Shown one piece after another: positions 15,335-30,872 of a stretch of 33,086 nt of DNA. The notes under the pieces are model-generated. The model saw only the letters and a program-made list of their open reading frames with translations, was not told where the DNA came from and made no database searches. Location of the stretch: the NCBI GenBank assembly GCA_025356475.1, contig JANXSX010000046.1, positions 1 through 33,086 of the forward strand. Direction: 5' to 3'. The translations under genes and the position numbers were made by a program. How positions within the stretch are numbered: the stretch's first letter is position 1; each line of letters begins with the position of its first letter. Source of the DNA: Isosphaeraceae bacterium (GTDB lineage: Bacteria; Planctomycetota; Planctomycetia; Isosphaerales; Isosphaeraceae).

Positions 15335-18300
15335 TCAGCGAAGTTTCGCATGCGCTTTGCCAGCCTTGCCTAAGAAAGTGGCAAACGCACGGCTATCCAG
15401 GTCATCGCTGTGACAAGTAATCAAAATCTCCTGAGTGGACACTAGCTCCCGAATGACGAGCCGATCTGCATCACTCAGAATCGGTGTTGGCGACTCGTCA
15501 AACGGGATCAGATTCAAATCATCATCGAGTTTGTCGATCTTGAAGGTCCCCTTGGGAACAGTGAATCTCAAGGTGACGACCCACTCACTTCCTGTCTGAG
15601 CGACAAGGAACGCAGGAGCGTTGAGGTTCGCGGAAAGAACGCGGACAACGGCGCGCTCCGTCCACTGGGTTGTCGGGAATCCGTGAACTGACGTCAGTCG
15701 ATCGACGATCTTTGCTAAGAGGTTTCCATCCCATCGACAGGGATTGCCGTTTCGAGCGACGCGATCTTGCGTATGCCAGAGACGTCCGTCAGCCTCCCAG
15801 GGGGGCTTCGTTTCGTCGCTTGGAAGCGACTTCAACGCGGCCTTCGCCTCGGCGAGCACACGCATTGCCGCCTCTTTGGGGTCGAATCGAACCCGTTCGG
15901 CATGTGGACCGGCAGCGAGGACCGGTTTTAGGATGGCCCCCGTCAGGCTTTCCTTAACTTTGGCAACGGTCTCCGGAGTCCCTTCTGCAACAACATGGCC
16001 TCCTGCCTCTCCCGCCTCGGGACCGATGTCGATCAACCAGTCCGCCGTTTTAATCACTTCAAGATTGTGCTCGATGATCACAACCGTGTTGCCCAGATCG
16101 GCAAGTCGATGGATCACATCCATGAGCTTGCGAGTATCGTCCATGTGCAGCCCCGTCGTGGGCTCATCAAGGATATAGAGCGTCCGACCAGTGTCCGGTC
16201 GAGCCAGCTCCGCTGCGAGCTTCACGCGTTGCGCTTCACCCCCCGAGAGGGTTGCCGCCGACTGGCCTAGAGCAACATAACCCAGACCGACATCCGAGAG
16301 TGTCTGGAGAACCTTGCGAATCTTGGGAACGGTCGCGAAGAGTTCAAGGGCCGGGTCAATCTTCATGGTCAAGACATCGGCGATCGTTTTACCACGATAT
16401 TTGACCGCCAATGTCTCTGCTGTATATCGCTGACCTGCACACGCTTCGCAGGTGACCCAAACATCAGGAAGGAAGTGCATTTCGATTCGCTTCTGACCGG
16501 CACCCTCACACGCCTCGCACCTGCCGCCCGCCTGATTGAAGCTGAACCGGCGCGACGTGTAACCCCGCGCCTTGGCCTCGGGAATTTTGGCAAAGAGTTC
16601 TCGAATCAGGTCGAAGACTCCCGAATACGTCCCCGGGGTCGAAGTCGGCGTACTTCCGAGTGGCGACTGATCGACACGGATCACCTTATCAAAGAGTCCC
16701 AATCCCTCAATGCTATCGTGAAGTCCAGGTGTCACTTGGGCGCGATGAAGCGCCTTCGCAGCAGCGTTTGAGAGGATGTCCTCAACCAGTGAACTCTTGC
16801 CAGAACCACTGACACCGGTCACCACGGTCACACAACCGATCGGGAAAGCCACATCGATATTCTTAAGGTTGTGATGCCGAGCGCCTCTGATGATAAGTTG
16901 GAGCCCATCGGCCGGTCGACGATTGCTCGGTATTGGGATCGCGGCTGAGCCGCTCAAGTATCGCCCAGTCAAGGAAGTCTTCGAGGCTTTGACTTGGGCG
17001 GGAGTTCCCGCCGCAGTCACTTCACCTCCGCCATCTCCTGACCCTGGTCCGAAATCGATCAAGTAATCCGCCGCCAGAATCACTTCGCGGTCGTGCTCGA
17101 CCAAAACTAATGTGTTTCCTAGATCTCGGAGGGACTTGAGCGCTTTGAGAAGCCGAGCATTATCGCGAGGGTGAAGCCCGATCGTCGGTTCATCCAGCAC
17201 GTATAGAACGCCGGTGAGTCCACTCCCGACCTGGCTTGCCAGCCTGATCCGTTGGCTCTCTCCTCCAGAGAGAGTCGGTGTCCCGCGTGAGAGGCTGAGA
17301 TAATCAAGGCCGACATCCACCAAGAACTTTAGTCGGTCACGAATCTCGCGGACAAGGTCTCCAGCAATATGCTTCTGATCGCCGGTGAGCTTCAGTCCAG
17401 TGAAGAAAACGAGCGCGCGACCTAGCGGCCATTTGCTCACCTGCTCAAGAGTGAACCCCTGGAACCGAACTGCCGCCGAGTCATCGCGAAGCCTCGACCC
17501 CATGCAGGACGCACATTCGACGCTATCGACCATTCCGGAAAGCTTGTGTCGGTAGAGGAAGGAGACCCGGCCCGCCTCTTCGATCGCGGGAAATAAACCC
17601 TTGTATTGGAACGAGAAACCCGGCCCATCCGTGACCGAAGGGACCGTGAACCAGGTGTCGCCGCTACCATGAAGGATTGCCCGACGGAACCGCCCCTCAA
17701 GGTCTTCAAAGGGTTGATTGAGGTCAATTCCGAGTGAATCCGTCAATGCGGCAATCATCCTTGCGAACATTGGATTGTCACCAAATCGCGGCCAAACAAC
17801 CACTGCTCCATCGCTAAGGGTCTTCCGACCGTCAGGGATGAGGAGCGCAGGGTTCGCACCGTTCTGAACGCCAAGTCCCTGACAAACCTCACACCAACCC
17901 ATCGAACTGTTAAATGAGAAGTGATGCGGTGAAAGCTCTGGAAAACTCCGGCCGCATGTCTCGCAGGAACGATGTTGACTGAATTGATCAACTTGCCACT
18001 TTGCCTCGTCGCCATCATCACCCACCCTTGCGACATGGACGACCCCCTTACCCAGGTCGAGTGCCGCTTCAATCGAATCTGCGAGCCGAGAACGAGTCGA
18101 GCGTCGTACGACCGCACGGTCGATCACCACCTCGATCTTGTGCTTGCGACGATGACTCAAGGTTGGTGAGGCATCGAGACTAAACGATACTCCGTCGACT
18201 CGAACGCGTGAGAATCCTGAACCCCGGAGCTCGTCCCACAGTTGGTCGAAATCTTCATTCTCACGACGTTCGATAGGAGCCATCACATAGACTTTGGTCC

Positions 18301-21300
18301 CCTCGGGCAAATGCAAGATTTTCTCGACAATTTCATCTGCGGACTGCGTTCCGATCGGAGTACTACACTTGGGGCAATAAGGCTGACCGAGTCGTGCAAA
18401 GAGAATTCGCAAATAATCATGAATTTCCGTGACAGTTCCCACCGTCGAGCGAGGGCTCTTGCTCGTGGTCTTCTGCTCGATGCTCACGGCTGGAGAGAGG
18501 CCTGTGATCTTCTCGGCCTTCGGCTTAGGGAGTGGGGCCAGGAACTGGCGAGCATAACTCGAAAGGCTCTCGACATATCGCCTCTGGCCTTCGGCGTAGA
18601 GGGTATCCATCGCCAGCGAGCTCTTGCCGGAGCCGCTCGGCCCACTGCAAACTGTCATCTTATGTCGAGGGATATCGACATCGATTCCTTTGAGATTATG
18701 CTGTCTGGCCCCTCGGACCACGATTCCAGCGAGCCCGTCCTCCGACGATCCTGCGCCCTTTTTGGTCGTCTTCGACTTCGCGACCGGGGCATGGAGACCC
18801 TTGAGCGTTCTCGCGAGCGCCCGGCCCGTATAGCTCTCCGTAACCTTAGCTACTTGCTCGGGAGTCCCTGTGGCGACCACTCGTCCGCCCCGTGAGCCTC
18901 CCTCGGGGCCGAGATCAATGATCCAGTCGGCGGTCTTGATCACATCAAGGTTATGTTCGATCACCACCACGGAATTGCCGGAGGCCTTGAACCCTTGGAG
19001 AACGTCGAGCAATCTTCGAACGTCGTCGAAGTGGAGGCCCGTTGTCGGTTCATCAAGCAGGTAGAGAGTCTTGCCGGTCCCACGTTTGACAAGCTCGCGA
19101 GCGAGCTTGATCCGTTGGGCTTCGCCGCCAGAGAGGGTCGGCGAGGCTTGACCGAGTTTGAGGTAATCGAGACCAACATCATGCAAGGTTTGCAGCATCA
19201 GCGCGATCTTCGGGACGTTCGAGAAATGCTCAAGAGCCTCTTGAACATCCATTTCCAGCACGTCCGCAATGCTCTTGCCTTTGAACCGAGCGTGTTGAGT
19301 CTCTCGGTTGAACCGCTTTCCTTCGCAGACTGGACACGTCACCCAGACGTCGGCCAGAAAGTCCATCTCCAAACGATTCGAGCCATTGCCCGAACACGCC
19401 TCGCAACGCCCTCCTTCGACGTTGAAGCTAAACCTCCCGGCCTTGTATCCCCGGGCTTTCGACTCCGGAAGCTTCGTGTACAAGTCGCGGATCAAGTCGA
19501 ACAACTTGATGTACGTCGCGGGATTTGACCTCGGTGTTCGACCGATCGGTGACTGGTCGATATCGATCATCTTGTCAAGATGATCGATCCCCTCGATTCG
19601 TTTGTGACTCCCTGGTTCCGTGAGTGCGCCGTTCAGATCGCGAGCGAGGGTTTCGCGAAGGATGTCTCCAATCAGCGAACTCTTACCCGATCCACTGACA
19701 CCCGTGACCACAACGAACATTCCCAACGGAATCTCGACGTCGATCTGCTTGAGATTGTTCTGAGTCGCACCCACAATTTTGAGCGATCGCCCATCGCTTG
19801 GCTTACGAGCCGTTGGGACCTCGATCGACTTCTTACCGGAAAGGTATTGACCTGTGATACTTCTGGCACTCTTGCACAACTGAGCAACTGTACCTTGTGC
19901 AACGACCTCGCCCCCTTTGACACCTGGTCCGGGCCCGAAGTCAACGAGGTGATCGCTCGCCCGCATTGTGTCTTCATCGTGCTCGACCACAATCACGGTG
20001 TTGCCCGCGTCTCGCAGTTTTTGAAGAGTTGAGATGAGGCGATCGTTGTCCCGTGGGTGCAGCCCAATCGAGGGCTCGTCTAAGATATAGAGGACCCCGA
20101 CAAGGCCCGCTCCGACCTGGCTCGCGAGCCTGATCCGCTGGGCCTCTCCACCGGATAGCGTCGGGGCAGGGCGGTCCAGCGTCAGGTATTCCAAGCCGAC
20201 GTTCGTCAAGAATGCGAGTCGACCGCGAATCTCTTTGAAAAGTTCTTCGGCGATCGTCATCGAGAGCGTATCGAGCGGGAGGGGAACTTCGGCCCGGCTG
20301 AGATCCTTGGCAGGGGAGCCGGCGAGGGCGTCAAAATGGCGCTGGGCGACGCCGATGGGGAGTCCACCGATCTCGACCATCGACTTCCCTCCGACTCGGA
20401 CTGCCCGAGCCCTCGCATTGAGTCGGGCCCCCCCGCAGTCGGTGCAACCGCGAGTCCGGACAAACTTCTCGAGCATCGCTCGATAGGGTCCTCCCTCGGA
20501 ACCCTTGTATTTCGCCATCAATTCCGTCGCAAATCCCTCCCACTTCTCGGCATGGGACCAGCTCTTACCCTTACTTTTCCAGCGATGGACGATGACGCGT
20601 TGCCCTGTGCCATGGAGCCAGGCTTCTTTAGATTTGGGGTCGAGATCGCGCCAGGGGGATTTGAGCAGGGTCCCTTTCGCCGGCCCACCTTTATCTGACT
20701 CAAGGTTCGCGGCGACCCCCTCCAAAATATGACGCCGCCAGTTGCCCATTTTACTGACCGGGCCAAGTGGCTCGATGGCCCCCTTCCAGACCGAAAGGGC
20801 GGGATTGGGGACAAGCAGATCGATGTCGAAGTCGAGGCGTGTCCCCAGTCCATCGCAAGACGGACACATCCCCTGCGGGCTATTGAAACTAAAAAGTTGA
20901 GGGCTGGGTGGATCGAAACTGATCCCACACGATGTGCAGGCATAGTGTGATGAGAGCAGAAGATCTGTCTGCCCTTCGACCGCGATGATCAGACTGCCGT
21001 CACCTCGCTTGAGGGCCGCTTCCACTGATTCCGCGAGCCGAGCCCGACCTCCCGACGACGCCTTGAGCCGATCAATCACCACTTCAATATTGTGCTTGAT
21101 TTGTCGGTCGAGCGCGAGTTCATCGGTCAGGGAGTGGACCTTTCCATCGACACGGGCTCGGACATAACCAGCCCTGCCCAACTCAGCGAAGAGATCCTTA
21201 TATTCCCCTTTTTGACCACGAATCACCGGTGCCAGGATGCTGAACGCAGTGGCGTCGGGCAGACCCATGATCCGTTCGACAATCTGCTCACGCGTCTGGG

Positions 21301-21712
21301 CCTCGACAAGTCGATCGCATTGAGGACAATGTCCTTGACCAACGCGAGCATAGAGTACGCGCAAGTAATCATTGATTTCGGTGATCGTGCCGACGGTCGA
21401 ACGTGGGTTCCTCCCGCCGGTCTTTTGCTGGATCGAGATCGACGGCGACAGCCCTTCGATCCGATCCACTTCGGGCTTAGGCATCTGGCCCAGGAACTGG
21501 CGTGCATAGCTCGAGAGACTTTCGACGTAACGGCGCTGCCCCTCAGCATAGAGCGTGTCGAATGCGAGTGAACTCTTGCCCGAACCGCTAACGCCTGTGA
21601 AACAGATGAGTCTGCCGCGAGGCAGATCGAGCGCGACGTCGCGGAGATTATGCTCACGCGCCCCGCGGATCACGATGTCCGTCGTCGCCATCCCTGCGGT
21701 ATCCTCATTCAA
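15335..21712 (-). CDS. uvrA: Double-length excinuclease UvrA: two fused UvrA units plus C-terminal extension
   Basis: One unbroken frame of 2125 residues. Unit 1 (about 11-970) and unit 2 (about 994-1930) are each a complete UvrA. The four Walker A loops (GxSGSGKSS) are at 40, 671, 1024 and 1633, with four LSGG(E)xQR signatures near 519, 860, 1481 and 1822. The Walker B strands read LDEPSIGLH, LDEPTTGLH, LDEPTIGLH and LDEPTTGLH. Four CxxC...CxxC zinc modules are present (259/262-283/286, 770/773-793/796, 1250/1253-1274/1277, 1732/1735-1755/1758). UvrA normally works as a dimer in damage recognition, so this chain is a covalent dimer. Residues about 1935-2125 match nothing I know. Met8 (21691) is an alternative start with GAGG upstream. 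Confidence 0.95.
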   Translation of the reverse strand: MNEDTAGMATTDIVIRGAREHNLRDVALDLPRGRLICFTGVSGSGKSSLAFDTLYAEGQRRYVESLSSYARQFLGQMPKPEVDRIEGLSPSISIQQKTGGRNPRSTVGTITEINDYLRVLYARVGQGHCPQCDRLVEAQTREQIVERIMGLPDATAFSILAPVIRGQKGEYKDLFAELGRAGYVRARVDGKVHSLTDELALDRQIKHNIEVVIDRLKASSGGRARLAESVEAALKRGDGSLIIAVEGQTDLLLSSHYACTSCGISFDPPSPQLFSFNSPQGMCPSCDGLGTRLDFDIDLLVPNPALSVWKGAIEPLGPVSKMGNWRRHILEGVAANLESDKGGPAKGTLLKSPWRDLDPKSKEAWLHGTGQRVIVHRWKSKGKSWSHAEKWEGFATELMAKYKGSEGGPYRAMLEKFVRTRGCTDCGGARLNARARAVRVGGKSMVEIGGLPIGVAQRHFDALAGSPAKDLSRAEVPLPLDTLSMTIAEELFKEIRGRLAFLTNVGLEYLTLDRPAPTLSGGEAQRIRLASQVGAGLVGVLYILDEPSIGLHPRDNDRLISTLQKLRDAGNTVIVVEHDEDTMRASDHLVDFGPGPGVKGGEVVAQGTVAQLCKSARSITGQYLSGKKSIEVPTARKPSDGRSLKIVGATQNNLKQIDVEIPLGMFVVVTGVSGSGKSSLIGDILRETLARDLNGALTEPGSHKRIEGIDHLDKMIDIDQSPIGRTPRSNPATYIKLFDLIRDLYTKLPESKARGYKAGRFSFNVEGGRCEACSGNGSNRLEMDFLADVWVTCPVCEGKRFNRETQHARFKGKSIADVLEMDVQEALEHFSNVPKIALMLQTLHDVGLDYLKLGQASPTLSGGEAQRIKLARELVKRGTGKTLYLLDEPTTGLHFDDVRRLLDVLQGFKASGNSVVVIEHNLDVIKTADWIIDLGPEGGSRGGRVVATGTPEQVAKVTESYTGRALARTLKGLHAPVAKSKTTKKGAGSSEDGLAGIVVRGARQHNLKGIDVDIPRHKMTVCSGPSGSGKSSLAMDTLYAEGQRRYVESLSSYARQFLAPLPKPKAEKITGLSPAVSIEQKTTSKSPRSTVGTVTEIHDYLRILFARLGQPYCPKCSTPIGTQSADEIVEKILHLPEGTKVYVMAPIERRENEDFDQLWDELRGSGFSRVRVDGVSFSLDASPTLSHRRKHKIEVVIDRAVVRRSTRSRLADSIEAALDLGKGVVHVARVGDDGDEAKWQVDQFSQHRSCETCGRSFPELSPHHFSFNSSMGWCEVCQGLGVQNGANPALLIPDGRKTLSDGAVVVWPRFGDNPMFARMIAALTDSLGIDLNQPFEDLEGRFRRAILHGSGDTWFTVPSVTDGPGFSFQYKGLFPAIEEAGRVSFLYRHKLSGMVDSVECASCMGSRLRDDSAAVRFQGFTLEQVSKWPLGRALVFFTGLKLTGDQKHIAGDLVREIRDRLKFLVDVGLDYLSLSRGTPTLSGGESQRIRLASQVGSGLTGVLYVLDEPTIGLHPRDNARLLKALKSLRDLGNTLVLVEHDREVILAADYLIDFGPGSGDGGGEVTAAGTPAQVKASKTSLTGRYLSGSAAIPIPSNRRPADGLQLIIRGARHHNLKNIDVAFPIGCVTVVTGVSGSGKSSLVEDILSNAAAKALHRAQVTPGLHDSIEGLGLFDKVIRVDQSPLGSTPTSTPGTYSGVFDLIRELFAKIPEAKARGYTSRRFSFNQAGGRCEACEGAGQKRIEMHFLPDVWVTCEACAGQRYTAETLAVKYRGKTIADVLTMKIDPALELFATVPKIRKVLQTLSDVGLGYVALGQSAATLSGGEAQRVKLAAELARPDTGRTLYILDEPTTGLHMDDTRKLMDVIHRLADLGNTVVIIEHNLEVIKTADWLIDIGPEAGEAGGHVVAEGTPETVAKVKESLTGAILKPVLAAGPHAERVRFDPKEAAMRVLAEAKAALKSLPSDETKPPWEADGRLWHTQDRVARNGNPCRWDGNLLAKIVDRLTSVHGFPTTQWTERAVVRVLSANLNAPAFLVAQTGSEWVVTLRFTVPKGTFKIDKLDDDLNLIPFDESPTPILSDADRLVIRELVSTQEILITCHSDDLDSRAFATFLGKAGKAHAKLR

Positions 21713-21817: not shown

Positions 21818-24217
21818 TTACTCGCGAATCAGCCAGACTTCTGCCACTTGACAGCCCCGACCGTTTCCTCCACGACCTGGCTCTCCATTCCACTTCAGGT
21901 CGAGCTTCCCATCCTCGGTCGCTTTGACTGGAATTGAGAACTCTAGAGGTCGAACTGGTTCAGGCTTTGTTAATAGATCATGGATGACGACCCTATCCGC
22001 CTCAAGCCGCATTTTCGCCTTGGGGCTGTCTCCGGAATAGACCACGCGGATTTTATAGCTTGCGTGCCGGTCGAGACCCTCATAGTGCATCATTAATGGA
22101 GCATCATAAAAAGTACTTGCATAGCGGCGCCAGGCTACCGGCCAATCGGTTCGAATCGCGAAGCCCTGAAAGGTCGCTCGGCTGAAGAGGGGGTCCTCAG
22201 TCGTCGAAGGCTCGTGGATGAGGTGGGGCGAATGGGAAGGATCACCAAGCTGGTCATAAAAGCCTCCAGGGCCAGGATTCTCGCGGTCGAGCAGGGCGTC
22301 GATCGCTATGAGCTTCTCAGTCTCGTTTCCCAAGGTACGTATCCTATTGAATTCAAGGCCCAACCAGACCCGGTTGTTGACTGGAGTGTCAATTGTATCG
22401 AGATTTGCGCCTCGTTCTGCGGCGATAGCCAGATACTTCGGTTTGCTGAGTTGCATCCGAACCGACTGGTAGAGAGCCTCGCCAAGCTCGAAGATACGTG
22501 CACGCCGATCGGTGGAAACCGGCTCGGTTAAGGATTTTTCGAGTATTTCAGTCGCACGGTTCATCGCCAGTTCCGTACCTAAGCGGGTCGAGTGGCGAAG
22601 GATTTCCATGGCCCTCGCTTCCAGCGCCGTCTCTTGAAGCAATCGATCACGGATATAGGCGTCGTAATATGCTCGATAAAGTGCTTGTTGGAATCGCCAA
22701 TTGCGACGTAGCTCGGTGGATGCCGTTCGCTCTAGACCCTGAAGTTGCTTGAGGGTGGTCTCGACTCCTGAATTTGTCAGAAGGGGACCGCTCCAGTTCC
22801 GTTCGAGGGCGAATAGCGACTTCGCAAACGAATCGGCTGATTTCGCGCCGATGAAGACTCGCGAATACTGCTCGAGAACTACGTTCACGTCGCCCTCGGG
22901 GTCCCAGGCCTGTGTGCTCCAGACGATTTTATTGACGTCGTCGTTACATCCCTCGGAGTAACTGATAAAGCCAATCGTATCCTTAAAGTAGGCTTTGGCC
23001 AGCTCTGCCTGAGCGAATGGCCGAGGGTTGATGGCTTCGCGTCCCTCGGTCCAAGCGTAGGCGAGATCCCAGTCGGGAACCGGGTGTTGGCACTGGCGGT
23101 TGTGAGTGATGTCGGGGTACCCGCGAATGGGATATTTGGCGGGGATCAGCTTGCGGAGTTCGGGCAGGAAGACCCGGACCTGAGGGCCATAGACGATTCC
23201 ATTCAGCCAAGGGGGCTCGGCCCTTGTCAGTTCGAGGAATTCCTCCATTCCCTGTCGATTGAAGCCTTGCGGAGAGACCCACATCTGAGCCTTTGGATGC
23301 GACCTGTGGAGGATTCCCGTCGCTTTGGCGAGGAAGTCGAAGAGCGGTTTCGGAGGTACTGCACCAGGATCTCCACCCGGTACAAAGATGGCATTGACCC
23401 GCTTCAATTTCTTAAAGATCTCGTCCCACTCTTTAAGCAATGGCTCAATCTTTGACGGGTCGGTATCGACCGCATCCATCACCGGGAACCAGATCCAAAC
23501 ATCCATATCGAAAGAGTCACAAATGTTGGACATCTCGATCATCATTTCCATCGGCGGGAGAGGAAAGTGAGGGCTATCGAGATCATCATCGGTGCGGGGT
23601 GGGACGAGTTCAATTGCGTTGGTCCCAAAGAGTGAGAGGTCTCGAATGTAGCGATACCACTGATCTCGATCCCACGCGTCGTATGAATTTGTCTTGGCGC
23701 GGTAACCGAGCTGATGGCCGCGAAGCTTGGTCTTGGGCGCGGTCGAGACCTGGAACGACTTCGGGAGATGGGCCGAGCCAACCTCAAGTCGTAGCTCCCG
23801 AAGGAGTCGACCAATCCCGAAGATGACTCCGCGATCATCATTTCCTACGACGACAACGGCCAAGTTTTCCGCATCGATCTCGATCCGATAGCCCTCAGCC
23901 CCATTTGGACCTTTTCCGTCTGCCAGTCGCCCCTTTAGATGCCCCGCCCAGTCGAGGTCTTTGGTCTGCTTACCGACGGCCACGATCGGGTGCCCTTGTG
24001 CTTCACTTAACTCGCTGATGACCTTCCACTTCAAACCCGTCCGATGTTCGATCTCAGCGCGTAGATACTGACCTGAACCAACCGCAGGCCGAATTCCAGG
24101 CCCTTCGTAGATCACCGCGTTGGAGAGGTCGATCGTCACTTCGGTGGAAACAGCAAGACAATTGGTCGAGAGCACGAGAACAGCCAGCCCGAGGAAAGGG
24201 AAGTATGCGAGTCTCAT
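21818..24217 (-). CDS. Large secreted glycoside-hydrolase-like protein (GH20/GH67-type N-terminal domain)
   Basis: A 799-residue exported protein (signal peptide FPFLGLAVLVLSTNCLA). Residues 27-160 resemble the alpha/beta accessory domain in front of GH20, GH67 and GH84 enzymes, ending in GNDDRGVIFGIGRLLREL (125-142). Residues 165-500 look like a TIM barrel opening with KLRGHQLGYR and including WIWFPVMDAV and MWVSPQGFNRQG. Helices follow (about 500-640), and residues 690-799 form a beta-sandwich-like end. The catalytic acids cannot be assigned by eye and the family number is uncertain; alpha-glucuronidase- or hexosaminidase-like activity on an external polysaccharide is the best guess. It precedes uvrA on the same strand by 105 bases, probably without functional linkage. 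Confidence 0.7.
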   Translation of the reverse strand: MRLAYFPFLGLAVLVLSTNCLAVSTEVTIDLSNAVIYEGPGIRPAVGSGQYLRAEIEHRTGLKWKVISELSEAQGHPIVAVGKQTKDLDWAGHLKGRLADGKGPNGAEGYRIEIDAENLAVVVVGNDDRGVIFGIGRLLRELRLEVGSAHLPKSFQVSTAPKTKLRGHQLGYRAKTNSYDAWDRDQWYRYIRDLSLFGTNAIELVPPRTDDDLDSPHFPLPPMEMMIEMSNICDSFDMDVWIWFPVMDAVDTDPSKIEPLLKEWDEIFKKLKRVNAIFVPGGDPGAVPPKPLFDFLAKATGILHRSHPKAQMWVSPQGFNRQGMEEFLELTRAEPPWLNGIVYGPQVRVFLPELRKLIPAKYPIRGYPDITHNRQCQHPVPDWDLAYAWTEGREAINPRPFAQAELAKAYFKDTIGFISYSEGCNDDVNKIVWSTQAWDPEGDVNVVLEQYSRVFIGAKSADSFAKSLFALERNWSGPLLTNSGVETTLKQLQGLERTASTELRRNWRFQQALYRAYYDAYIRDRLLQETALEARAMEILRHSTRLGTELAMNRATEILEKSLTEPVSTDRRARIFELGEALYQSVRMQLSKPKYLAIAAERGANLDTIDTPVNNRVWLGLEFNRIRTLGNETEKLIAIDALLDRENPGPGGFYDQLGDPSHSPHLIHEPSTTEDPLFSRATFQGFAIRTDWPVAWRRYASTFYDAPLMMHYEGLDRHASYKIRVVYSGDSPKAKMRLEADRVVIHDLLTKPEPVRPLEFSIPVKATEDGKLDLKWNGEPGRGGNGRGCQVAEVWLIRE

Positions 24218-24475: not shown

Positions 24476-25306
24476 ATGTCGACCGTCCGTCGCCCCTGGG
24501 CCTCTCTCTGGCTTGTCCTTGCTCTCCTCGGGCCAGCCTCATTCGCCCTTGCCCAGACAACTCCGGTTGCAAACTCGACGGAAGCTGCGGCAGAACCCCC
24601 ATCTTTCTTCACCCTCATGGTGAAGTCATCGGGGCTGATCGGCGTCGTGATCCTCTTCATGTCGGTGTATTTGGTCGCCCTCATTGCCTGGATGGCCATG
24701 CAGTATCGCCGCTCGGTCGCACTCCCGGAGCGACTCCTGGAAGACCTCCGAAATCTACTCGACCAGAGGCTTTACACGGAGGCTTTCTCCCGAGTCTCTA
24801 GCGATCCTTCCTTCTTAGCGCGAGTTCTCACCGTCGGGGTGAAGAAATTGCCCTCGGGGTCCGCTCAAGCTCAGAGGGCCATGGAATTGGCGAGTGACGA
24901 TGTGAGCATGGCGATGGAACACAGGACAACCTACTTGGCCACTGTCGGAACCTTGGGGCCGATGATCGGGCTGGTGGGTACGGTCTATGGCATGATTATC
25001 AGCTTCCGTGTGATCGCCAGTGCAGGGTCATCACCACAAGCGAGTCTACTGGCCGAGGGAATTTCGATCGCGCTCTTCGCCACGCTTGAAGGAATCGCAC
25101 TTTCAATCCCAGCGATCTACTTTCACGCTGTGTTCCGGAACCGGATTGCTCGACTGGCGCTCGAGGTCGAACTGGCGGCGGAGGGCCTCCTGGAACAATT
25201 TGCCCCAGGAGTCCGTGGAACCATGCACCCACTCGCGACTGTCATGACTCCTCCTTCGCCCGGTATTCCGACCCGAACCGCGTTGCCCCCCGCCCCTTCG
25301 GCCTGA
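24476..25306 (+). CDS. MotA/TolQ/ExbB-family proton channel protein
   Basis: A 276-residue protein. An N-terminal signal-like segment (LWLVLALLGPASFALAQ) precedes three membrane helices at about 53-76, 154-178 and 194-220. The helix 2 block VGTLGPMIGLVGTVYGMIISF and helix 3 block EGISIALFATLEGIALSIPAIYF are the classic TolQ/ExbB signatures. Family members form a pentameric channel that couples proton flow to movement of ExbD and its partner. The next genes are two ExbD-like proteins 20 bases on, preceded by GGAGGG. The cleavable-looking N-terminus followed by a periplasmic stretch is common among planctomycete ExbB proteins. I leave the symbol blank because the Ton or Tol identity is not clear. 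Confidence 0.9.
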   Translation: MSTVRRPWASLWLVLALLGPASFALAQTTPVANSTEAAAEPPSFFTLMVKSSGLIGVVILFMSVYLVALIAWMAMQYRRSVALPERLLEDLRNLLDQRLYTEAFSRVSSDPSFLARVLTVGVKKLPSGSAQAQRAMELASDDVSMAMEHRTTYLATVGTLGPMIGLVGTVYGMIISFRVIASAGSSPQASLLAEGISIALFATLEGIALSIPAIYFHAVFRNRIARLALEVELAAEGLLEQFAPGVRGTMHPLATVMTPPSPGIPTRTALPPAPSA

Positions 25307-25326
25307 ACTGACGGAGGGACCGATCA

Positions 25327-25818
25327 ATGTCACTCCGTGCTCGAACTCGCGGCGGGCCTGCCGTACTTAGCCCGAACCTAACGCCCTTGCTCGACGTTGT
25401 CTTGCAACTGATCACTTTCTTTCTGATGTTGGTCCACTTTGGGACCAAAGTCGAAGGTGATGCCCAAACAGTTCGCCTTCCCGTCACAGCGTCGGCAATG
25501 CCTACCGACGATCTCGCGATGGACCGTCTCGTACTCGGAATGGACTCGACCGGCCGGCTACTCGTCGAAGGCGAGGAAGTCCCCTTGGGTGAGCCCGAGG
25601 CCGCAGGCTTCTGGGCAGCTCAAGCCAAGGCGAGGCGGAAAGGGTTAGCCACACTCCGTGCTCTCAACCCCGGCCCGGCCGATCTGCTTCCTACGGTTGT
25701 CGTGATCCGGGCTGATCGCGAGGTCGCGTACGGATCGGTCCGGAAAGCTCTGGTAACCGCCCAAGAACAGGGGTTCGCTCAGTTTAGCTTGATCGTCAAG
25801 CAGAGGCCAGGACCATGA
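25327..25818 (+). CDS. ExbD/TolR-family protein, first copy
   Basis: A 163-residue protein with one N-terminal membrane helix (about 20-38: TPLLDVVLQLITFFLMLVHF). Asp23 in that helix matches the proton-carrying aspartate of ExbD and TolR, so it is likely functional. A periplasmic domain of about 120 residues follows, including the family ending DREVAYGSVRKALVTAQEQG. A GGAGGG precedes the start. Its stop overlaps the start of the second copy by four bases (ATGA). Confidence 0.88.
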   Translation: MSLRARTRGGPAVLSPNLTPLLDVVLQLITFFLMLVHFGTKVEGDAQTVRLPVTASAMPTDDLAMDRLVLGMDSTGRLLVEGEEVPLGEPEAAGFWAAQAKARRKGLATLRALNPGPADLLPTVVVIRADREVAYGSVRKALVTAQEQGFAQFSLIVKQRPGP

Positions 25819-26321
25819 CGAGCCGACAAGCCTCCCGGCGGCAAAAGCGTCACGATCCGCCCTCAGAAGTGATGTTCCCGGTCACTCCGATGCTCGATAT
25901 GGCGTTCCAGCTTCTTGCTTTCTTTGTGCTAACGTTCCAGGCCCCCAGTGGTGAGAGTCGGCTCGATCTCTACCTCCCGGCGGTCGCAGCCGCGCTCCCC
26001 TCCGCTCCAGGCGGTCTGGCATCGACGACCACTGTAACGAAGACGGAGTCGGACCTCGAAAATGACCTCCTCGTCCGTGTGGAGGCCGACGAACTCGGAG
26101 ACTTGAAATCGCTCAAGCTCGGCGATGCAAACGTCCCAAGTGTCGAGGTCTTGACGGATCGACTCCGTAAATACGAAGCATTATTGGATGGCCGGCCGTT
26201 ACGAGTTCGGATCTCCGCCGATGATCGGCTTCGTTATGAGGAGGCCGCACGAATCATTGCAGCTTGCGGGATCGCTGGGGCGTCGTCAGTTCGACTCACG
26301 GACCCGAGGGCCACGCCATGA
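25815..26321 (+). CDS. ExbD/TolR-family protein, second copy
   Basis: A 168-residue protein with a basic N-terminus and membrane helix PMLDMAFQLLAFFVLTFQ carrying the conserved Asp28. The periplasmic domain contains VRVEADELGDLKSL and ends in RYEEAARIIAACGIAGASSV, the usual ExbD C-terminal fold. It is coupled by 4-base overlaps to the genes on both sides. Two different ExbD copies per channel suggest a heterodimeric arm inside the ExbB pore (inference). Confidence 0.88.
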   Translation: MTSRQASRRQKRHDPPSEVMFPVTPMLDMAFQLLAFFVLTFQAPSGESRLDLYLPAVAAALPSAPGGLASTTTVTKTESDLENDLLVRVEADELGDLKSLKLGDANVPSVEVLTDRLRKYEALLDGRPLRVRISADDRLRYEEAARIIAACGIAGASSVRLTDPRATP

Positions 26322-26905
26322 CCTTGGTCATTGCCGTTCTTCTGACGATCGCGACCGCCGACTCCTCAGCATTGAATCTTGCCGATTTACCTGTATTTCA
26401 GGCAGCCCTTTCGGAAAATACCTCTATCCCGCTCACAGTTGGCTTTCAAGACCTGTGGGGACATCCCGAGAATTTCGCGGGTCAGCGAGTCAAGGTCGTC
26501 GGTCATCTCGAACGCCGGTTTCGTCAGGGTCCTGTGGGAGAGTTTCCCGCCCTCGTCGAGAGCTGGATTAGCGATAGTTCGAAGAACCTGATGTGTCTCG
26601 TCCATCCAGATCGGGGAGAAGCTTCCCCATCGGGACAGGTCGAATTCGTTGGAACATTCCTACGCCCAATTCGCTACAAGGCGAGCGATGCCCATCGACT
26701 CGTGCCGCTGATCATCGGAGCTGGACCGCTCGTCGGCTTGACCCCATCCGACACCACCCTCTCACAGAACAAAGAGAATGGAATCGATCGAATACTTTTC
26801 ATCGTGTTAGGGCTATTATTGATCATGATGATTGCTCGCAAGAGCCTGAACCGGCCCCCAGCACCGAGAGTTGTTATTGATCCAACGCCGGAGTTCATCT
26901 CCTAA
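26318..26905 (+). CDS. Envelope protein with OB-like domain and C-terminal membrane helix
   Basis: The ATG at 26318 overlaps the preceding stop (ATGA), which fixes the start; the frame open further upstream is a shadow. The 195-residue product has a signal peptide (MTLVIAVLLTIATADS). The extracytoplasmic domain starts FQDLWGHPENFAGQRVKVVGHLERRF, a pattern reminiscent of OB-fold tRNA_anti-like or cytochrome-assembly domains. It also has LMCLVHP, RPIRYKASDAHRLVPLIIG, and one membrane helix at 157-172 (RILFIVLGLLLIMMI). I cannot name its function. Its fixed place inside the Exb cluster suggests a structural part of that complex. Confidence 0.7.
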   Translation: MTLVIAVLLTIATADSSALNLADLPVFQAALSENTSIPLTVGFQDLWGHPENFAGQRVKVVGHLERRFRQGPVGEFPALVESWISDSSKNLMCLVHPDRGEASPSGQVEFVGTFLRPIRYKASDAHRLVPLIIGAGPLVGLTPSDTTLSQNKENGIDRILFIVLGLLLIMMIARKSLNRPPAPRVVIDPTPEFIS

Positions 26906-26921
26906 GAAAAGAGGCGATAAG

Positions 26922-27920
26922 GTGCAGATTCAACTCGGGGAATCCCCGATGACCGACCCTCGGTCGATATCGATTTCGTTAGTAGTCAATGGTTTCATCT
27001 TATTCCTGGCTTCAATAGCTGTGCTTGGGGTGGCGACTTCAGGACAGAATGAGCCACTCCCCAAATTAATTCGTGGGATTGTGGACCCGGTCGACACCCT
27101 CGCTCCTGCCGAGTCTGGTGGCGGGGGCGAAGGCGAACTCGGGGGTCGCAGCACCATTGCCGTGACAGCGGAGTCAACCGGTGTCTCAGTCCAAACAAAA
27201 GAGAGCCCTGCCGATGCCCTGCTAGCTGAGCTTCTTCCGAGCCAACCGATAATGGAACCGACCCCGGGCGTTCTTCCCGGCCCGACCACAAGTGGAATCG
27301 GGGTCACACCAGGGCTAGGAACCGGTGGTGGAGGAGGAAGGGGCGCGGGTTCGGGGGGTGGAGCAGGTAGAGGGGTCGGGCCTGGTACCGAATTTTTCGG
27401 CGCACGAGAGCACGCAGGCTCGTTCGCTTATGTCATTGATTGTTCCGGAAGCATGGCTCTGCGTGGAGCACTCGATCGGGCGAAGGTCGAGCTGATTGCT
27501 AGCCTCAACCAGCTTCCTCCTGACGCGATATTCGCTGTGATTTTCTACAACCTCAAGGCCGACGTGTTCAGTGATGCGACTGGTAAGATCGGGCTGATGC
27601 CTGCAACAGCCGCGAACAAGGCCAGGGTTCGGACCCTCCTCGGTAATGTCGTGCCCGACGGCGGTACCGACCACATGGGAGCCCTTCGAGCGGCCTTCGG
27701 TCTCAGGCCTGAGGTCGTCTTTTACTTGAGCGATGGGGACCTGATGTCCCAGCACGAAGTACTCGAACTCAATGCTGAGGTCGGTACGATCCGGATCCAA
27801 GCGGTGGAACTCGGGCTCGGCAAGAATAGTCTTCGAGTCGTAACACCCTTACGTAAACTTGCGACAAGCTCGGGCGGATCATATCGCTACATCGACACGA
27901 GCGAGTTTCACGGACGGTAA
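26922..27920 (+). CDS. TonB-shaped membrane protein with C-terminal von Willebrand factor A domain
   Basis: The GTG at 26922 is preferred: GAGG is 7 bases upstream and it lies just after the previous stop (26905). Met10 at 26949 and a TTG at 26871 are alternatives. The 332-residue product has an N-terminal membrane helix (17-39: ISLVVNGFILFLASIAVLGV). A long Pro/Gly-rich linker follows (about 60-155, with runs such as GGGGGRGAGSGGGAGRG). Residues 165-330 are a VWA domain with an intact metal site: DCSGS at 173-177, Thr249 in DGGTD and Asp271 in LSDGD. The helix-linker-domain plan matches TonB/TolA arms of ExbB-ExbD systems, but the C-terminal domain is VWA. It may convert proton-driven motion into binding of an envelope ligand (inference). 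Confidence 0.82.
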   Translation: MQIQLGESPMTDPRSISISLVVNGFILFLASIAVLGVATSGQNEPLPKLIRGIVDPVDTLAPAESGGGGEGELGGRSTIAVTAESTGVSVQTKESPADALLAELLPSQPIMEPTPGVLPGPTTSGIGVTPGLGTGGGGGRGAGSGGGAGRGVGPGTEFFGAREHAGSFAYVIDCSGSMALRGALDRAKVELIASLNQLPPDAIFAVIFYNLKADVFSDATGKIGLMPATAANKARVRTLLGNVVPDGGTDHMGALRAAFGLRPEVVFYLSDGDLMSQHEVLELNAEVGTIRIQAVELGLGKNSLRVVTPLRKLATSSGGSYRYIDTSEFHGR

Positions 27921-28202: not shown

Positions 28203-30872
28203 ATGCGAGTTTGGCGAGGAATCTGCGGGGCAGCCCTGGTCTTGGGACTGACCGTGCTGGCTGGACCCACCGCACATGCGGCCGATCCGGTGGTCCCGAA
28301 CGCGAGCCCTACGGTCTCGGGTTCCGACTTTCACTATTTCGAGTTTCTCACTAGCAATAACACCGACACGAGCGAGAAGGTTGCATTAATTCTCGTCCTT
28401 GTCGTGGCCTTGGGTGGCCTCGTTTATGCGGCTATGCTCGTCTTTCAAGTCCTCGGAGCAGACCAGGGGACGCCCAAGATGCGAGAGGTCGCTCTCGCCA
28501 TCAAGAAAGGAGCGAATGCCTACCTGTTCCGGCAATTCAAGGCGATCATCACACTCGTCTTCCTTCTGACTGCCATACTCTACTTCGCGACCGCAGGGGG
28601 TGAGAGTGAAACCTATATCGCAATCGGTCGAGCTGCTGCATTCTTCGTCGGGGCGACATTCTCCTGGACCGTTGGCTATGTGGGTATGAGCCTCGCCGTC
28701 CGAGGGAATCTCCGTGTCGCAGCCGCAGCCCGGACGAGCTACGGTGCCGCCCTCCAACTCGGCTATCGCACTGGAACGATCACGGGAATGCTCACCGATG
28801 GCCTAGGCCTCCTCGGCGGCACGGTGATTTTCCTTGCTTATGGTGAGCATGCCTATGAAGTCCTGTTAGGCTTTGGATTTGGTGGCACGCTTCTCGCCCT
28901 CTTCATGCGAGTTGGTGGTGGCATCTACACCAAGGCCGCCGACGTTGGGGCCGACCTTGTTGGCAAAGTCGAGCAGAATATTCCCGAGGACGATCCCCGC
29001 AACGCCGCAACCATCGCCGATAATGTCGGTGATAACGTCGGCGATTGCGCAGGGATGGCCTCCGATATCTTCGAGAGCTACGAAGTCACGATCGTCGCCG
29101 CGATGATCCTTGGCTTTGCCAGCTTCGGGCACAAGGGGGTCATCTTCCCATTGCTTGTCCGAGCCATCGGCGTCATTGGCTCGATTATCAGCACCTATAC
29201 CGTCAAGGCAGGGGCCGATTCGACCAGCGATGAGGCCCTCCATTCGGTGCATCGGGGCTTCTTACTAGGCTCGTTCATCAGTGTCGCGGGATTTTTCTTG
29301 CTCGGGATCAGTTATCTCCACTTCGATGACAACTACATTCGCAAGTACCCCCAGGCGATTGGCGGTTATTCGATCACAGCGGAGTTCAAGTCAGCCAGAG
29401 ACGCCTTTGAACACGAACATCTCGATGACCAGACGGCCAACCCTCAGAAGTTCGCCCGCGAATACCGCACGTTCGTCACGGCTTACGAAGGAAAGATCAT
29501 TGATGGACGGCTTCCCTTCTGGGCAAGTCTGGGAATTTCCAGCCTCGACCTCCGGCCAGCGTTAACGTGCTTGATCGGAATCGTCCTGGCACTGGCATTA
29601 AACAAGGTGACAAGCTATTACACGCACACCCAATACGAGCCTGTGAAATCGTTGGCGAAGTCGTGTCAAACCGGACATGCCACCAACATTATCTCAGGCT
29701 TCGCCCTGGGATATGAATCGTCGGTCGCAGCGGTTCTGGTCATCGCGGTCGCCTTGTTCTTGTCGGTGCTAATCTACACCGGGGCAAGTCCCATCTTCGT
29801 AGCGTACGGAGTCGCAATGTGCGGCATTGGGATGCTTACGCTTACGGGTAACACGATTAGCATGGATGTGTTCGGTCCAGTGGCCGACAACTCCAACGGC
29901 ATTGGCGAAATGGCGTATGACCGCGCTGAGATGGGTGAAGAGAACTACAAACGAGCCCGACAAATTCTCGCCGATCTCGACGCGGTGGGAAACACCACCA
30001 AAGCCGAGACGAAGGGAATCGCAATTGGCTCAGCCGTCATCGCAGCCGTGAGCCTCTTCGCCTCGTTTATCGCCGTCATCGCGGTCGGCAGCGAGTCTCG
30101 AATTGGCGAGATGACAACGGCCCAGTACCTCACCGAAGCCGGCAAGCTCTCGGTCGCTCAGCCCGAAGTTTTTATCGGCATGCTCATCGGTGGCTCGATC
30201 CCATTCCTGTTCTCGTCGATGCTCATCCGCGCGGTCGGTCGTGCCGCGTTCCTGATCGTGAAAGAGTGCCGTATCCAGTTCCGAGACCCCGAAATCTGGG
30301 CAGGAACCAAGACTCCCGACTACGGGCGCGTCGTCAATATCTGCACCAAAGCCGCCCAAGGTGAGTTGATCGGACCGGGCGTACTGGCGATCGTCGCGCC
30401 GATTCTGGTCGGTATCTACCTCGGGCCTTACGCGCTCGGTGGGTTCCTCGCGGGGATGATCGTCGTGGGGCAACTCCTCGCCGTCTTCATGGCCAACGCC
30501 GGTGGGGCCTGGGATAATGCCAAAAAGACGATCGAGGACGGGCTCTATGGCGGAAAGGGATCCGAAGCCCATAAGGCGAGCATTACCGGCGACACCGTTG
30601 GTGATCCCCTCAAGGACACCGCAGGCCCCGCGCTCAACCCCTTGATCAAAGTTATGAACATGGTCGCCCTCCTGGCGATCGGCCCCATCCTGGCCGCCAA
30701 GGCGACCGATTCCACTCCGTGGCTACTCTATGGGATCGGTCTCCTAGGCATCGCTTCCGTCATCTGGGCCATCTGGCGGAGCAAAACCGAGAGTAAGGAG
30801 TTCCAGGAACTTGAACTTGAGCTTGCCGACGCACAGGCTGCAGAGATGAAGGGCGAACCTGTCGGCCACTAG
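28203..30872 (+). CDS. hppA: Membrane-bound H+-translocating pyrophosphatase
   Basis: An 889-residue multi-pass protein with GGAGG 7 bases before its ATG. It hydrolyses pyrophosphate and pumps protons. The substrate site is plain: DVGADLVGKVEQNIPEDDPR, then NAATIADNVGDNVGDCAGM (about 247-285), DVFGPVADNSNGIGEM, GGAWDNAKKTIEDG and GDTVGDPLKDTAGPALNPLIKVMNM. Lys600 in GNTTKAETKG stands where K+-dependent enzymes carry Ala, predicting a K+-independent pump. It is longer than the usual 670-800 residues: a signal-like N-terminus (ALVLGLTVLAGPTAHAADP) precedes the first core helix, and a hydrophilic insert of about 70 residues lies at 373-440. A nested hairpin follows the stop. Confidence 0.96.
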   Translation: MRVWRGICGAALVLGLTVLAGPTAHAADPVVPNASPTVSGSDFHYFEFLTSNNTDTSEKVALILVLVVALGGLVYAAMLVFQVLGADQGTPKMREVALAIKKGANAYLFRQFKAIITLVFLLTAILYFATAGGESETYIAIGRAAAFFVGATFSWTVGYVGMSLAVRGNLRVAAAARTSYGAALQLGYRTGTITGMLTDGLGLLGGTVIFLAYGEHAYEVLLGFGFGGTLLALFMRVGGGIYTKAADVGADLVGKVEQNIPEDDPRNAATIADNVGDNVGDCAGMASDIFESYEVTIVAAMILGFASFGHKGVIFPLLVRAIGVIGSIISTYTVKAGADSTSDEALHSVHRGFLLGSFISVAGFFLLGISYLHFDDNYIRKYPQAIGGYSITAEFKSARDAFEHEHLDDQTANPQKFAREYRTFVTAYEGKIIDGRLPFWASLGISSLDLRPALTCLIGIVLALALNKVTSYYTHTQYEPVKSLAKSCQTGHATNIISGFALGYESSVAAVLVIAVALFLSVLIYTGASPIFVAYGVAMCGIGMLTLTGNTISMDVFGPVADNSNGIGEMAYDRAEMGEENYKRARQILADLDAVGNTTKAETKGIAIGSAVIAAVSLFASFIAVIAVGSESRIGEMTTAQYLTEAGKLSVAQPEVFIGMLIGGSIPFLFSSMLIRAVGRAAFLIVKECRIQFRDPEIWAGTKTPDYGRVVNICTKAAQGELIGPGVLAIVAPILVGIYLGPYALGGFLAGMIVVGQLLAVFMANAGGAWDNAKKTIEDGLYGGKGSEAHKASITGDTVGDPLKDTAGPALNPLIKVMNMVALLAIGPILAAKATDSTPWLLYGIGLLGIASVIWAIWRSKTESKEFQELELELADAQAAEMKGEPVGH

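Follow-up and report, generated by a model that had tools for sequence, protein, structure and literature searches.

What could a proton-driven motor act on when the arm encoded beside it ends in a VWA domain? The question is raised by five adjacent genes at positions 24476 to 27920 of the window, the whole 33,086-nucleotide stretch analysed here, which is a single contig (JANXSX010000046.1, assembly GCA_025356475.1) of an Isosphaeraceae planctomycete. They encode an ExbB/TolQ-type subunit, two ExbD proteins, a fourth protein, here called X, and a protein composed of a transmembrane (TM) helix, a linker and a VWA domain. We read the cluster as a force transducer of the vWA class, driven by proton-motive force, with a probability of about 0.68. 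Gene order, domains, motifs, conservation and the absence of any detectable TonB, TolB or receptor plug are what the analysis shows directly. The features are as follows, all on the forward strand.

24476..25306, +: ExbB/TolQ-type proton-channel subunit, 276 amino acids, with an N-terminal signal-like helix (Pfam MotA_ExbB, 3.2e-26)
25327..25818, +: ExbD1, 163 amino acids, motif NLTPLLD with Asp23 (Pfam ExbD, 3e-14)
25815..26321, +: ExbD2, 168 amino acids, motif VTPMLD with Asp28 (Pfam ExbD, 2.2e-13); it starts 4 bases inside ExbD1
26318..26905, +: X, predicted single-pass protein with an OB fold (AlphaFold2, matches to OB-fold structures)
26922..27920, +: TM-linker-VWA protein, 332 amino acids from GTG, 323 from the ATG at 26949 (Pfam VWA_3, 4e-7; AlphaFold2; alignments)
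26976..26990, +: Ser19-x3-Asn23 of its TM helix, matching TonB Ser16/His20 in position (alignment of homologues)
27039..27383, +: Gly/Pro-rich linker of 115 residues, 40 to 154 (alignments, AlphaFold2)
27438..27734, +: span of the residues D173, S175, S177, T249 and D271 of the metal ion-dependent adhesion site (MIDAS), invariant in 26 sequences
28203..30872, +: H+-translocating pyrophosphatase, immediately 3' of the VWA gene; a neighbour, not claimed as part of the cluster

From ExbB to the VWA gene, the open reading frame calls leave gaps of 20, -4, -4 and 16 bases, the order and spacing given in a preliminary description of this DNA. Its recognition of a proton channel with two ExbDs keeping the key Asp agrees with the Pfam matches and with the presence of D23 and D28; the single-pass, OB-like nature of the fourth protein is borne out by structure prediction, and the N-terminal helix, Gly/Pro linker and MIDAS-bearing VWA domain of the fifth by Pfam, AlphaFold2 and the five MIDAS residues. 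For the VWA gene, the GTG start at 26922 is favoured over the ATG, because the residues upstream of the latter (LGESPxTDPRS) are kept in relatives. A promoter and terminator scan of the cluster gave nothing exceeding shuffled sequences, and hence no evidence for an operon; a search of Rfam returned no match.

Conservation was evaluated in 37 Isosphaeraceae genomes, namely 36 relatives and the host genome (5.9 Mb, 99.98% complete); a wider sample of 59 adds 22 other members of the class. Linkage tallies over the 37 genomes were summed by hand from several searches, and three genomes, 68-81% complete (G006, G009, G021), were left out of the linkage verdict. Full-length VWA homologues, 42-62% identical, are found throughout the family: as the cluster recurs at this level of VWA identity, chance is excluded as its origin. 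Motor and VWA genes are adjacent in 25 of the 37 genomes; X was not found in one adjacent case (G011), and in G015 X and VWA are separated by about 1.4 kb.

The VWA protein has the geometry of a transducing arm. Its AlphaFold2 model, built with 26 sequences, places a TM helix at residues 13-39, followed by a linker of low confidence (about 40-154; of its 115 residues 29 are Gly and 13 Pro) and a VWA domain mostly above 90 in predicted local distance difference test (pLDDT) score. The D-x-S-x-S, T, D pattern is complete, which makes the domain a predicted metal-binding MIDAS domain; the label "adhesion", attached to it in the preliminary description, goes beyond the data. In the N-terminal helix, Ser-x3-His is present in 78 of 91 distinct homologues and Ser-x3-Asn in three (window, G018, G031); two of the other ten carry Thr-x3-His, and the remainder are for the most part truncated or without the helix. 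The corresponding residues of E. coli TonB (Ser16/His20) and TolA (Ser18/His22) touch a Ser and a Trp of the first TM helix of ExbB/TolQ (PMC12215075). A His-to-Asn substitution at the motor-binding site has been reported to be fully working in E. coli TonB; the natural Asn variants match it, which favours a docking role of the residue over a proton-carrying one. No distinct change in the first TM helix of ExbB accompanies Asn in the three genomes. The maximum likelihood tree requires two changes to Asn, while 13% of the bootstrap trees require one; Asn may have arisen once or repeatedly. A second VWA protein, encoded on another contig of the host genome (L049:8106-8966, C124), has no Ser-x3-His helix and no motor nearby; similar ones recur in the family.

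The motor side is conserved as well. ExbB retains both pore Thr residues, the equivalent of Pro190, and Trp72, which corresponds to Trp38 of E. coli ExbB and is present in all 24 orthologues with a readable region, including those from loci with an unlinked VWA gene. The Asp motif of ExbD1 is found in 29 of 29 strong orthologues, and among relatives that of ExbD2 reads TPMLD or APMLD. A phylogeny of ExbB gathers the motors associated with VWA into a single clade (29 rows, support 99/98), unlinked ones included. Overall, the host genome contains seven MotA/ExbB and seven ExbD genes. A relation to the Zorya defence system was discarded: the ZorA profile reached only E 0.047 for ExbB, and nothing was found for the remaining cluster proteins.

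Several observations weigh against a VWA-armed motor. The VWA gene is unlinked from the motor in seven genomes (G001, G008, G010, G016, G020, G026, G030), and in two others (G018, G031) uvrA separates the two, at a distance of 12-14 kb. In the window helix Ser19 is kept, but His is replaced by Asn23; Ala and Val stand where the SHLS motif has Leu and its second Ser. Ser34 of ExbB is Ala throughout the VWA-associated clade. Of 14 motors from clusters with a tetratricopeptide repeat (TPR) gene, 11 bear Glu or Asp at the Trp position, although the VWA proteins of these clusters have His: Trp thus marks this lineage, not partnership with VWA proteins in general. Finally, the first part of the linker (LRGE..PVDNRA...GGGSPGE.GG in relatives), kept across the family, is just a conserved stretch, a possible motor box.

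The loose linkage suits a different explanation, in which the VWA protein acts on its own in the envelope, anchored in the membrane, as a folding or adhesion factor similar to Bat or YfbK, and its proximity to ExbB and ExbD is conserved synteny only. In several of the seven genomes the VWA gene stays beside the pyrophosphatase gene instead, and BatB (3ibs) is among the closest solved structures, mostly VWA domains, retrieved by Foldseek with the VWA model. The Bat proteins of Bacteroides, which comprise membrane VWA and TPR members, share with the protein described here a membrane-anchored VWA domain. A simple anchor, on the other hand, would not need the motor-binding Ser-x3-His/Asn, which is kept in the helix; the Trp-type motor is retained in those unlinked genomes that were read; and VWA and ExbB genes are paired, in a separate arrangement, in other planctomycetes too. 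Bat proteins are not known to have an ExbB/ExbD motor or a long Gly/Pro linker. Mere synteny is accordingly considered unlikely. The VWA gene does vary independently of the cluster in position, as the unlinked and uvrA-split cases show, but not in presence: it moves, yet nearly every family genome retains both motor and VWA.

For X, no match was found in Pfam or NCBIfam, so that a fold can be assigned, a family name cannot. Its AlphaFold2 model (mean pLDDT 87.6) consists of a helix resembling a signal peptide, an oligonucleotide/oligosaccharide-binding (OB) domain at about 35-143, predicted to be a five-stranded barrel, and a C-terminal TM helix (155-177). The barrel matches OB-fold chains with Z scores of 9-10, at about 2-3 A over 80-98 residues; matches with Z about 10 superpose at 2.5-2.8 A over 91-98 residues. 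Many of these are nucleic-acid-binding proteins; the OB fold being a common arrangement, the matches indicate no function. As the barrel sits between signal peptide and TM helix, X is likely periplasmic. In an alignment of 20 sequences 17 columns are invariant, and the short tail ends in a conserved P-x-x-x-F (P189 and F193).

X also raises the question of which protein is the effector. Possibly ExbB, ExbD1, ExbD2 and X are the real machine, working through X or through an unseen protein, with a secondary part for VWA as client or sensor. X remains with the motor when VWA leaves: in six of the seven unlinked genomes an intact ExbB-ExbD1-ExbD2-X cassette is found elsewhere. Moreover, a second, paralogous cassette (ExbB-ExbD1-ExbD2-X') without adjacent VWA is present on another contig of the host genome (C189, L158:7623-10712) and in relatives. 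Its ExbB falls outside the VWA-associated clade and has Lys at the place of Trp38; among cassettes of this type the residue is Lys, Arg or Leu. Conversely, G010 and G011 retain motor and VWA, but no X was found beside the motor in either, and X lacks a TonB-like geometry, having a C-terminal anchor and no long linker; a machine centred on X is, in our view, improbable. Homologues of X' extend to other families of the class, where longer ones (380-441 amino acids) adjoin large proteins (L173:6273-7415, L174:6975-8300); one of those in L173 has a GH106 rhamnosidase match.

The candidate clients of a motor of this kind were looked for by profile searches. Neither TonB_C (PF03544) nor the TonB receptor plug was detected in any of the 37 family genomes, host included, and TolB_N was absent from all 59; the same profiles do match in the E. 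coli, Caulobacter and Bacteroides controls. The family hence appears to have a motor without a recognisable Ton or Tol client, and no canonical TonB, which the preliminary description had named as the finding that would speak against its proposal, was found elsewhere. Among the other 22 class members TonB_C is present in five and the plug in eight. The proposal of a VWA domain "in place of TonB" goes beyond the data, since related VWA genes are also present in some TonB-bearing planctomycetes (G040, G044, G048, G049, G057).

A diverged TonB or Tol-Pal system, with known outer-membrane clients, might be invoked, as the motor fold is the same and two OmpA-domain proteins are encoded in the host genome. 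Like TonB-ExbB-ExbD, the cluster combines this fold with a helix-linker-domain geometry, a Ser-x3-His/Asn docking site and the Trp and Pro of ExbB; unlike it, it has a MIDAS VWA domain, not TonB_C, and two ExbD genes, in a family without a plug match. With TolQRA-TolB-Pal it shares motor fold and docking motif, the differences being the lack of a TolB_N match and the VWA in place of the C-terminal domain of TolA. Identity of the VWA protein with TonB and of the cluster with Tol-Pal were rejected on these grounds, and even a much diverged version is very improbable, given the blank searches and matching controls.

A closer precedent exists. Force transducers with a vWA domain were proposed from structure prediction in several phyla, planctomycetes included (Mol Biol Evol, June 2025, PMC12204202); in the Planctomycetes-Verrucomicrobia-Chlamydiae group the vWA gene often follows a TPR gene, tolQ and two copies of tolR, and the complex, for which no phenotype is described, was modelled with the helix at the edge of the motor. 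That paper states an SHLS motif with a conserved His for many, not all, members. The idea of a VWA-armed motor is thus right but not new, and the cluster is best described as a variant of the class already proposed; a literature search for ExbB, ExbD and "VWA domain" together gave no paper, and one for vWA, TolQ and force only PMC12204202. The resemblance includes an ExbB/TolQ-like gene, two different ExbD/TolR-like genes, a TM helix followed by a disordered linker of about 100 residues (115 here) and a C-terminal vWA fold, Ser-x3-His in most relatives, and no transpore Asp in the helix. The window differs in having the OB-fold X instead of a TPR gene and, with G018 and G031, Asn for His, while linkage of VWA and motor is loose in some genomes. 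As the window helix does not carry the SHLS motif with its His, and its Leu and second Ser are absent, the protein was filed as a variant. The second class described there, TPH-vWA, defined by a pore Asp within the VWA helix and by the lack of an exbD/tolR gene, was rejected: the window helix has no Asp and two ExbD genes are present.

Clusters of other planctomycetes (such as L046 and L091-L097) combine a related Ser-x3-His VWA gene with TPR, ExbB and one or two ExbD genes. In them VWA, and TPR where read, is upstream of ExbB, no X was seen, and ExbB has Glu or Asp, not Trp, and belongs to other clades. Clusters L046 and L048 both contain TPR genes.

A role in gliding motility was the speculation of PMC12204202 for vWA transducers. 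The glider Isosphaera pallida belongs to the family, going by the title of a 1987 paper by Giovannoni that PMC12603096 cites. The cluster is family-wide, and PMC12603096 describes the Tundrisphaera members compared there as non-motile; a gliding motor is the least probable of the explanations considered, with hardly any chance of being correct.

Returning to the force transducer, the proposal of a TonB/TolA-like arm that is mounted on an ExbBD motor and has the VWA domain as its working end is supported by the Ser-x3-His/Asn helix, the ExbB Trp and the lack of TonB, plug and TolB in the family. Assembly, docking, force, partner and the role of X are the parts that we infer. An ExbB pentamer would surround two ExbD subunits, paired probably as an ExbD1/ExbD2 heterodimer, and would be driven by protons passing the Thr/Asp site of the pore. 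The VWA-protein helix would dock outside ExbB, with Ser19/Asn23 against Trp72, as in TonB and TolA; the flexible 115-residue linker would span the periplasm, and the VWA domain, through its MIDAS metal, may bind an envelope partner to be pulled or released. X would be a periplasmic accessory anchored in the inner membrane, likely a regulator or adaptor.

As for the surroundings, the H+-pyrophosphatase is a proton pump next to a motor that runs on protons; it is found directly 3' of VWA in 15 of the 36 distinct loci of the family, including some with the motor elsewhere. On the reverse strand, a 799-amino-acid protein adjoins the cluster (21818-24217; a weak Glyco_hydro_20b match below cut-off) and a tandem (double) UvrA of 2125 amino acids is encoded at 15335-21712; uvrA often adjoins the cluster or its parts (L037, L039, L041, L042, L167, L169). 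Three metagenome-assembled contigs titled Candidatus Kuenenia (L076, L077, L078) carry a cluster of Isosphaeraceae type and group with the family in the ExbB and VWA trees; their bins or titles are probably mislabelled.

New here are X as an accessory of predicted OB fold, the Asn variants, the paralogous cassette devoid of Trp and VWA, and the family-wide absence of TonB and TolB. The paralogous cassette provides a built-in control. It is tempting, though rather doubtful, to see in the cluster the chief means of energising the outer envelope, where a metal-gated VWA grip, regulated by its OB partner, would power transport or remodelling unlike those described for Ton and Tol. In a family where TonB, plug and TolB are not detected, the conserved, VWA-armed proton motor is the obvious candidate for energising the outer membrane, and this lack of TonB and TolB makes the VWA motor worth an experiment, although the concept has been published.

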